From positions 1 through 36,004 of the forward strand of contig NCEV01000017.1 of NCBI GenBank assembly GCA_002280875.1: a DNA stretch of 36,004 nucleotides. The letters are read 5' to 3'. This document shows, in pieces, positions 3,633 through 6,833 of this stretch (its first letter is position 1; each line of letters begins with the position of its first letter). A program made the position numbers and the translations under genes. This DNA comes from Caulobacter sp. 32-67-35. GTDB lineage: Bacteria; Pseudomonadota; Alphaproteobacteria; Caulobacterales; Caulobacteraceae. Under the pieces are notes generated by a model. That model worked only from the letters and a program-made list of their open reading frames with translations, was not told the origin of the DNA and made no database searches.

Positions 3633-3862
3633 CCATCAAGCCGGCCGGTCCCGCATCACGCGACTCCGGCGGCCCCGCTCGACCGCATCCACGCCGCGCG
3701 TCTCGGGCCGGATCCAAGAGCCCTCTCCCTCGCGACGGGATGGGGAGAAGTCTACGGGCGGTTTGGGTGCGTCTGATGGGCGCGATCGATTTTTTTGCAA
3801 GGTGTTGGAAGGGTTGGGGTTTGTGGCGGCGGGAGCGGGGATAAACTGCGCGCTATTCCCTT

Positions 3863-4025
3863 CCTTCTCCCCTTGCGGGAGAAGGTGGTCGCGAAGCAAC
3901 CGGATGAGGGGTCGATAGTCCTGTAAGCTAGGCGCCCGGACCCGACCGCCCTACGCGGCGGCCCTCGCCATCGACCCCTCACCCGACCCGCTACGCGGGC
4001 CACCCTCTCCCGCATGGGGAGAGGG
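3863..4025. repeat. Inverted-repeat element, copy A
   Basis: A 163-bp element. The left arm starts CCTTCTCCCCTTGCGGGAGA and runs to about 3916; the right arm (about 3970-4025) is its imperfect reverse complement, ending CCCGCATGGGGAGAGGG. The left arm contains its own small hairpin (TTCTCCC/GGGAGAA), as does the right. The middle reads TCCTGTAAGC then GGCGCCCGG, shared with copy B at 4407-4568. In the reading frame that copy B uses for the end of the DUF559 gene, copy A spells a similar ending (DEGSIVL then stop), although no upstream coding sequence is left. It may be the scar of an earlier DUF559 copy or an independent mobile repeat. Confidence 0.85.
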
Positions 4026-4041
4026 ATTGCAGCGCCCGGAT

Positions 4042-4056
4042 GTTCATGTATTGTTC
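4042..4056 (+). promoter_or_regulatory. Candidate LexA (SOS) box before the DUF559 gene
   Basis: GTTC at 4042-4045 and GTTC at 4053-4056 are separated by exactly seven bases, which is the alphaproteobacterial SOS box as known from Caulobacter and Rhizobiales. It ends 5 bp before the ATG at 4062. A weak TTGCAG (4027-4032) and TATTGT (4049-4054) with 16-bp spacing would put the box over the -10 element and give an almost leaderless mRNA. About one such match by chance is expected in a window of this size, so the position, not the match alone, is the argument. Confidence 0.5.
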
Positions 4057-4061
4057 TCATC

Positions 4062-4472
4062 ATGGTTGATCGCGCCCGACAACTCGCCTTCGCCCGCGCC
4101 CTGCGCCGCGAACCCCCAATGACCGAGCGACTGTTGTGGAAACTCCTCCGCGACCGCCGCCTCGACGGCCTGAAGTTTCGCCGCCAACTGCCGATCGGCC
4201 GCTATGTGGCGGACTTCGTCTGCCTGCGCCATCGCCTGATCATCGAGGCCGACGGCCCGCACCACGAAGAGCGCGCCGAGGTCGACGCCGTCAGAGACGC
4301 CTGGCTGGCGGCCCAAGGCTTCCGCGTCTTGCGCTTCACCAACAGGGCCATCCAGGGCTTCCCCGAAACCGTCCTGAACCAGATCCTGGCCGCCTGCGCC
4401 CCAAACCCTTCTCCCCTTGCGGGAGAAGGTGGCTCGCGCAGCGAGACGGATGAGGGGTGGATCGTCCTGTAA
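4062..4472 (+). CDS. DUF559 (Vsr-like endonuclease fold) protein
   Basis: A 136-residue protein of the DUF559 family, related in fold to the very-short-patch-repair and other PD-(D/E)xK nucleases. The family core is complete: ERLLWKLLRDRRLDGLKFRR near 22-41, PIGRYVADFVC with Asp51, LIIEADGPHH with Glu62 and two His, and the closing GFRVLRFTN near 86-94. Asp51 and Glu62 are the expected metal-binding residues. The biochemical role of these stand-alone proteins is not established; DNA repair or defence is an inference. I chose the ATG at 4062; an upstream in-frame ATG at 4014 would read through repeat copy A. The last 20 or so residues (PSPLAGEGGSRSETDEGW) are encoded by repeat copy B. A candidate SOS box precedes the start, and the gene faces uvrB. 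Confidence 0.85.
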   Translation: MVDRARQLAFARALRREPPMTERLLWKLLRDRRLDGLKFRRQLPIGRYVADFVCLRHRLIIEADGPHHEERAEVDAVRDAWLAAQGFRVLRFTNRAIQGFPETVLNQILAACAPNPSPLAGEGGSRSETDEGWIVL

Positions 4473-4568
4473 GCGGGGCGCCCGGCCGGTCGGCTGTGCG
4501 CGGCGGCGCCGATCTTCAACCCCTCATCCGGCGCTGACGCGCCACCCTCTCCCGCAAGGGGAGAGGGG
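4407..4568. repeat. Inverted-repeat element, copy B, overlapping the end of the DUF559 gene
   Basis: A 162-bp element in direct orientation with copy A (3863-4025); the first 26 bases are identical. The left arm encodes the last residues of the DUF559 protein and its TAA stop lies in the central part (CCTGTAAGC). The right arm (4519-4568) ends CCCGCAAGGGGAGAGG and stops directly at the TAA of uvrB (4569-4571 on the minus strand). The element thus fills the space between two convergent genes and could form a long hairpin in either transcript. Confidence 0.85.

Positions 4569-6833
<2,265 letters not shown>

Follow-up and report, generated by a model that had tools for sequence, protein, structure and literature searches.

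DUF559 nuclease genes and the hairpin repeats that bracket them: a probable mobile element resembling REP/RAYT systems

Most DUF559 genes that we surveyed lie between inverted hairpin repeats, and the gene with its hairpin ends is probably a mobile element that works in the manner of REP/RAYT systems but with an unrelated nuclease of the PD-(D/E)xK type. This reading rests on the bracketing itself, on a unit whose edges are sharp in the best pairs of loci, on gene-less copies whose ends are fixed, on matching sites that have or lack the unit, on covariation between arm and protein, and on purifying selection on the gene. The window, meaning the whole stretch analyzed (36,004 nucleotides of contig NCEV01000017.1 from Caulobacter sp. 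32-67-35), holds one such gene between two copies, A and B, of a palindromic repeat of roughly 162 bp, next to a frame at 4569-6833 that is putatively uvrB. The locus contains the following features.

3863-4025, + strand: repeat copy A, with a hairpin at 3863-3885, inner arms at 3901-3916 and 3970-3985, and a hairpin at 4003-4025; gene-less and MITE-like
3970-4028, + strand: upstream inverted arm toward the gene, made of the right half of copy A; its 59 nt are 83% complementary to 4404-4462; bracket score 91 (locus L002)
4062-4472, + strand: DUF559 gene, a predicted nuclease of 136 aa, with the domain at 4080-4397; an in-frame ATG also lies at 4014
4404-4462, + strand: downstream inverted arm toward the gene (the left half of copy B)
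4407-4568, + strand: repeat copy B, oriented as copy A; its last base borders the uvrB stop codon at 4569
4569-6833, - strand: uvrB, the conserved neighbor used for same-site comparison among relatives

The initial annotation had described copies A and B as direct repeats with identical first 26 bases and shared internal motifs, copy B supplying the end of the gene and copy A a similar ending without the rest of a gene. We confirmed this description. The copies share a 39-nt block (90% identical) and a 38-nt block (87%), with 81% identity overall, and their gene-facing parts form an inverted pair of 59 nt that is 83% complementary. The DUF559 frame crosses into copy B at residue 116 of 136, leaving the last 21 residues and the stop encoded by the repeat, and copy A carries DEGSIVL and a stop in the matching frame, as read from the sequence. 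The hairpin motif, with at most three mismatches, occurs four times in the window, twice in each copy, and not once in 100 shuffles; together with the block identities, this rules out a chance origin of the direct repeats. Folded as single-stranded DNA, copy B reaches -66 kcal/mol (z -8.4), which none of 200 shuffles matched. Elsewhere in the genome, elements like A and B gave at least 59 matches on both strands (from the best 40 of 81 candidates scored), which we read as about 24 genomic places.

Three other origins were considered and rejected. Rfam, searched with 3861-4572 for a known RNA family, returned only MIR1437 (score 43, gathering score 168) and MIR1858 (38, gathering score 137), which we take as chance matches of GC-rich hairpins because the scores are far under the gathering scores. 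A phage origin was set aside, as just one phage record matched, and weakly. The genome has 0 matches to Y1_Tnp (PF01797), which rejects a RAYT origin of its repeats.

The window protein belongs to the DUF559 family (Pfam PF04480, E 1e-40, 138.4 bits against a cut-off of 20.6), and the Pfam scan gave no other match than a sub-threshold one to PF18741. Among named proteins, its best three matches come from Caulobacteraceae, Brevundimonas, and Phenylobacterium. The DUF559 gene is the only gene in the window unit, where no known transposase family (DDE, HUH, tyrosine, or serine) was found; the Pfam matches of this one gene are DUF559 and MTES_1575. A structure model has a mean pLDDT of 85.5, with values below 50 in the repeat-encoded tail (residues 121-136). 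Foldseek matched the model to 3hrl, an endonuclease-like protein (TM 0.86 by target length), to 3r3p, the homing endonuclease I-Bth0305I (TM 0.75 by target length), and to 1vsr, the Vsr structure (E 3.5e-3), and sequence searches of solved structures matched 3hrl (5e-38) and 3r3p (0.0018). Residues E22, D51, E62, D64, and H68, which are among those invariant across 80 sequences, putatively form the active site. By modeled fold and conserved acidic residues, DUF559 is a predicted nuclease of the PD-(D/E)xK / Vsr-like kind. The gene is under purifying selection: dN/dS was 0.04-0.16 in eight of nine DUF559 pairs, the remaining one being saturated, with two of the nine syntenic (L059/L062 and L130/L134).

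We measured bracketing by taking 350 bp on each side of the domain and aligning one side to the reverse complement of the other, with random intervals from the same loci as the baseline. By Pfam search, the window's own genome (4.1 Mb in 163 contigs, 96% complete) has five DUF559 genes, and all five have arms on both sides, of differing sequence subtypes, with bracket scores of 97, 91 (the window), 70, 59, and 92. For named loci, chosen by protein similarity, 8 of 80 were untestable as the contig ended beside the gene; a score of at least 32 was reached by 43 of the 72 testable loci versus 27 of 3153 random intervals, and by 52, out of an equal number, when domain edges were taken from the profile instead. 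A second sample, from the window's phylum, was picked by domain score and not by flanks. It held 115 DUF559 genes, made up of 29 loci, 80 stretches taken down the match list (with three rows skipped, one of them at a contig start), and the five genes of the window's genome, one locus having two genes. Here, 85 of 115 genes scored at least 32, versus 14 of 1820 random intervals, and 81 of 115 scored at least 36, versus 2 of 1820. Over all loci pooled, 137 of 187 DUF559 genes are bracketed, and 50 of 187 are without an arm pair at the threshold.

The same test applied to Vsr genes, which encode a related fold, found none of 30 bracketed. Y1_Tnp genes were bracketed in 3 of 27 cases (3 of 30 untestable) and GIY-YIG genes in 12 of 29 (1 of 30 untestable), the latter by other repeats, and bracketing is therefore not unique to DUF559. 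Random intervals of these loci, kept just 350 bp away from the domain, scored in 0 of 890 cases at Vsr loci, 9 of 707 at Y1_Tnp loci, and 28 of 893 at GIY-YIG loci. The GIY-YIG arms (L253-L282) belong mostly to two other repeat superfamilies, of CTTCGACAAGCTCAG type and GTCATCCCCGCG type. A tree of the 187 DUF559 domains, 137 armed and 50 armless, requires a minimum of 38 changes of state, and the association is thus not that of one clade. The surveyed genomes are mostly from one phylum; the few named loci from other phyla had bracket scores of 51 (L054), 39 (L040), 38 (L099), 33 (L072), 33 (L075), 25 (L087), 21 (L050), and 19 (L043).

These counts bear on the proposal, made from the window alone, that a PD-(D/E)xK-like protein and a structured repeat form a module loosely like REP/RAYT. 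With DUF559 genes bracketed in 137 of 187 cases and Vsr genes in 0 of 30, the observation of the initial annotation is correct and general. The repeat-made protein tail also recurs: among 131 bracketed genes, 87 have a stop codon that falls on or past the beginning of the downstream arm. The proposed layout needs amending: direct copies flank the gene here and in a Sinorhizobium unit described below, but the usual plan is a pair of inverted arms, of which the direct-copy layout is one form.

The arms have a recognizable form. A perfect stem of at least 7 is present in 112 of 131 arms versus 32 of 454 control stretches, and units measured between the outer edges of their best arms have a median length of 491 bp. 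A frequent arm reads CCCTCTCCC-loop-GGGAGAGGG and then, toward the gene, GGGTGAGGG. Of 131 arm pairs, 84 contain the half-stem CCYTCKCCC or a near complement, and 44 contain GGRTGAGGG or its complement. In genome-wide counts, 47 of 150 genomes contain the hairpin CCYTCTCCCN{2,8}GGGAGARGG, and 5 of 150 contain a palindrome made by permuting its letters. At least five hairpin matches were present in 23 of 31 genomes with DUF559 versus 6 of 119 others (Fisher p 3e-15, without correction for relatedness) and, within the window's class only, in 16 of 22 with DUF559 versus 0 of 16 without. The repeat is therefore linked to DUF559 genes, as had been proposed, and not scattered regardless of them. A genome was counted as having DUF559 at a match of E 1e-10 or better, and weaker matches were counted as without; one of the six hairpin-rich genomes in the latter group, G026, has such a weak match. 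Two genomes outside the DUF559-match group, G140 and G054, have 111 and 60 hairpin matches, for which a lost gene, an incomplete assembly, or another agent are candidate explanations.

Arm sequence and protein sequence covary. Between loci of different genomes, with 35 syntenic pairs dropped, arm similarity climbs with protein identity (Mantel r 0.27 versus at most 0.15 in 999 permutations), and the share of pairs with arm similarity above 0.6 goes from 2% at 30-35% identity (161 pairs) to 63% above 70% identity (16 pairs). In a paralog comparison, which gave a null result, arms were more similar to those of the nearest relative elsewhere than to those of same-genome paralogs in 23 cases and less similar in 21. 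In a post hoc look by eye, 12 of 14 cases were in favor where the nearest relative was at least 60% identical.

We compared eight pairs of loci, with mostly unrelated flanks, for the edges of likeness. In L123/L145, which lie 5.7 kb apart in one genome and are 86% alike, likeness begins and ends at the hairpin edges and the sequences outside are unrelated, and in L048/L108 both edges of likeness are likewise at the hairpins, making two such pairs of the eight. Three pairs (L165/L170, L034/L035, and L064/L139) are alike from the left hairpin edge to about the gene end, and the main match of L073/L078 runs from the gene to the right hairpin edge. Likeness begins about 22 bp outside the left hairpin in L055/L096 and is confined to the gene in L042/L110.

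The genome of L123 and L145 has at least 39 element matches (from 40 of 51 candidates scored), all on contigs C31 and C8, and the copies among the matches listed comprise two gene-bearing units, six gene-less end pairs, of which two are truncated, and two solitary ends. Between the two arms of the L123 unit there is a single difference over 101 bases (score 197), the L123 and L145 genes have a pS of 0.66, and small GC-rich palindromes flank the copies of this genome, G197 (L123, L145, and L348-L377). Near-identical arms beside diverged genes, with GC-rich palindromes at the ends, suggest that the ends of the G197 element may have been homogenized. In the window's own genome, the element of L001 gave at least 20 matches (40 of 92 candidates scored) and that of L005 at least 135 on both strands (40 of 126 candidates scored). 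Among 39 L005-type sites fetched, 29 were complete by pattern, and the core is exactly 106 bp in 22 of these 29. Bases 1 and 3 outside the stems do not vary among the 29, being T and G to the left and A and C to the right, and TA is preferred farther out. The 29 complete copies showed no target-site duplication, the shared flank word being 3.28 versus 3.27 in shuffled pairings. On contig C18 of genome G000, the L005 DUF559 gene has several gene-less copies of its subtype within about 9 kb, an arrangement that resembles the clustering of repeats near rayt genes described in the available part of PMC2817692.

Some relatives have the matching site without the unit. Sinorhizobium sp. K101 has a repeat-gene-repeat unit of about 720 bp (query positions 714-1435) on the window's plan. 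In Shinella sp. PSBB067, the K101 flanks (83% and 81% alike) are contiguous and joined where the unit would be, and in Rhizobium leguminosarum TP16 (76% and 68%) they are separated by 101 bp, in place of 861. The unit is absent at the matching site in both genera. As the unit is missing from two genera, its insertion in Sinorhizobium is the simpler reading of these alignments; its absence in Shinella and Rhizobium could also be a loss. At the uvrB-adjacent site, DUF559 is present in 1 of 30 loci of the genus, the window's own, with contig ends shortening some of the loci. Inspected by eye, L316 and L335 have at this site a single gene-less repeat of the window's subtype, and L318 has its right half. 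The two sites inspected (uvrB and Sinorhizobium) are intergenic, and no intron or intein context was seen at either. At another locus, L404 on pSymB of S. meliloti Ak57, the DUF559 gene neighbors an ISRm16 (IS4-like) transposase gene, which is situated among the flanking repeats.

In E. coli, the DUF559 gene is ycjD, between sapF and fabI (L343-L347), with a 41-nt hairpin of the same type downstream. Matches to the ycjD stretch were obtained in 3365 of 5426 genomes, almost always at a single place in each. Two E. coli strains without ycjD were inspected for a clean gene-less site, and none was found; in these strains, the region upstream of fabI holds a TetR gene and an efflux operon.

DUF559 elements have a close parallel in REP/RAYT systems. 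As far as the available text of PMC2817692 and PMC6006769 goes, RAYT genes are flanked by two inverted REPs and coevolve and co-occur with REPs, and REPtrons, as reported in PMC6006769, do not appear to transpose as a unit. DUF559 elements likewise place a nuclease gene between inverted palindromic repeats, have many dispersed gene-less copies, and show gene-repeat coevolution and gene-repeat co-occurrence across genomes. They differ in the enzyme, RAYT being a Y1/HUH enzyme (PF01797) and DUF559 PD-(D/E)xK-like, and in having unlinked copies and sites without the unit, whereas REPtrons reportedly do not appear to transpose in this way. Since the traits are shared and the enzyme is not, DUF559 elements would work like REP/RAYT without being members. 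Vsr and I-Bth0305I (labeled EDxHD in the accessible portion of PMC9403480) resemble DUF559 in fold, as given by the 3r3p and 1vsr matches above, but DUF559 has hairpin arms at both ends and Vsr genes were bracketed in none of 30 cases. Like MITEs, the gene-less copies are short and have inverted ends in common with a gene-bearing unit; unlike MITEs, the 29 L005-type copies gave no target-site duplication and the gene-bearing unit is without a known transposase family.

The palindromic repeats of DUF559 type are perhaps the same as RIME or CIR. Many gene-less rhizobial copies (H114-H126) are about 117 bp. CIR of Caulobacter, in the portion of PMC2229807 available, is an alphaproteobacterial element of about 110 bp with two hairpin arms, a linker, and GANTC in a loop, and differs in this last point from copies A and B, where GANTC is absent. 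RIME of rhizobia is described in the available part of PMC2573895, which does not give its sequence. The same portions of the two texts (PMC2229807 and PMC2573895) attach no gene to these repeats.

In the mechanism that we propose, the DUF559 gene and its flanking hairpins would together make up a small mobile element, about 0.5-0.7 kb long. The protein, with its Vsr / I-Bth0305I fold, would recognize hairpin ends of its own subtype and cut at or near the hairpin foot. The unit, as well as gene-less MITE-like copies of just its two ends, would then be copied to new places, aided by host replication or repair. We infer both the role of DUF559 as mover of the units and the position of the cut.

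A different history, which we consider unlikely, would make DUF559 a homing-type parasite that cuts gene-less repeats spread by other means and has its gene copied in by recombination repair. I-Bth0305I, one of the two nearest solved folds, is a homing endonuclease, and the single gene-less repeats of L316 and L335, at the uvrB site where the window has repeat-gene-repeat, suit such a history. However, the repeats concentrate in DUF559-bearing genomes and the gene-less copies have precise ends, which would require a second agent, and the window's genome has no Y1_Tnp gene. It is less probable still that DUF559 has a host function in Vsr-like or structure-specific repair, resolving hairpins or mismatches, with the repeats present through regulation or co-selection. 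The fold is like that of Vsr (E 3.5e-3), ycjD sits at nearly always one place in each of the 3365 genomes, and, in the available text of PMC12907096, the DUF559 protein VsrA of C. crescentus is required for, and causes, a DNA damage response in cells lacking the cytosine methylase and is predicted by the authors to act in mismatch repair. Yet true Vsr genes are never bracketed among the 30 examined, and a single genome with five DUF559 genes of differing arm subtypes, together with sharp-edged units, fits a mobile element better.

Palindromic repeats could also be common intergenic filler, with small genes lying between them by chance or as cargo. The six hairpin-rich genomes among the 119 counted without DUF559 are in keeping with this, as are the 12 of 29 GIY-YIG loci bracketed by other repeats. 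We regard such a passive association as very improbable: random intervals of the same loci reached the threshold in only 14 of 1820 cases, Vsr and Y1_Tnp genes did so in 0 of 30 and 3 of 27, and arm and protein covary across unlinked loci. A mobile element made of the DUF559 gene and its hairpin ends is the explanation that we favor.

Catalogues of palindromic intergenic repeats go back decades, and few sources for them are known outside REP/RAYT. In the literature that we searched, which lay mostly outside subscription journals, we found no description of a link between DUF559 and palindromic repeats; this is weak evidence of novelty. More tentatively than for the element itself, we propose that DUF559 proteins may be the mobilizing enzymes of a widespread hairpin-ended class, outside known transposase folds, and the source of many proteobacterial palindromic repeats (possibly RIME and CIR among them), with stand-alone GIY-YIG nucleases acting likewise for other hairpins. 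With a gene that is bracketed by the repeats and co-occurs and covaries with them, the origin of such repeats becomes directly testable, including in E. coli through ycjD. If DUF559 drives movement, a nuclease superfamily would be added outside the known transposase classes, which would suggest that REP-like systems arose more than once. The DUF559 element may then explain the origin of scattered palindromic repeat families in many bacteria.
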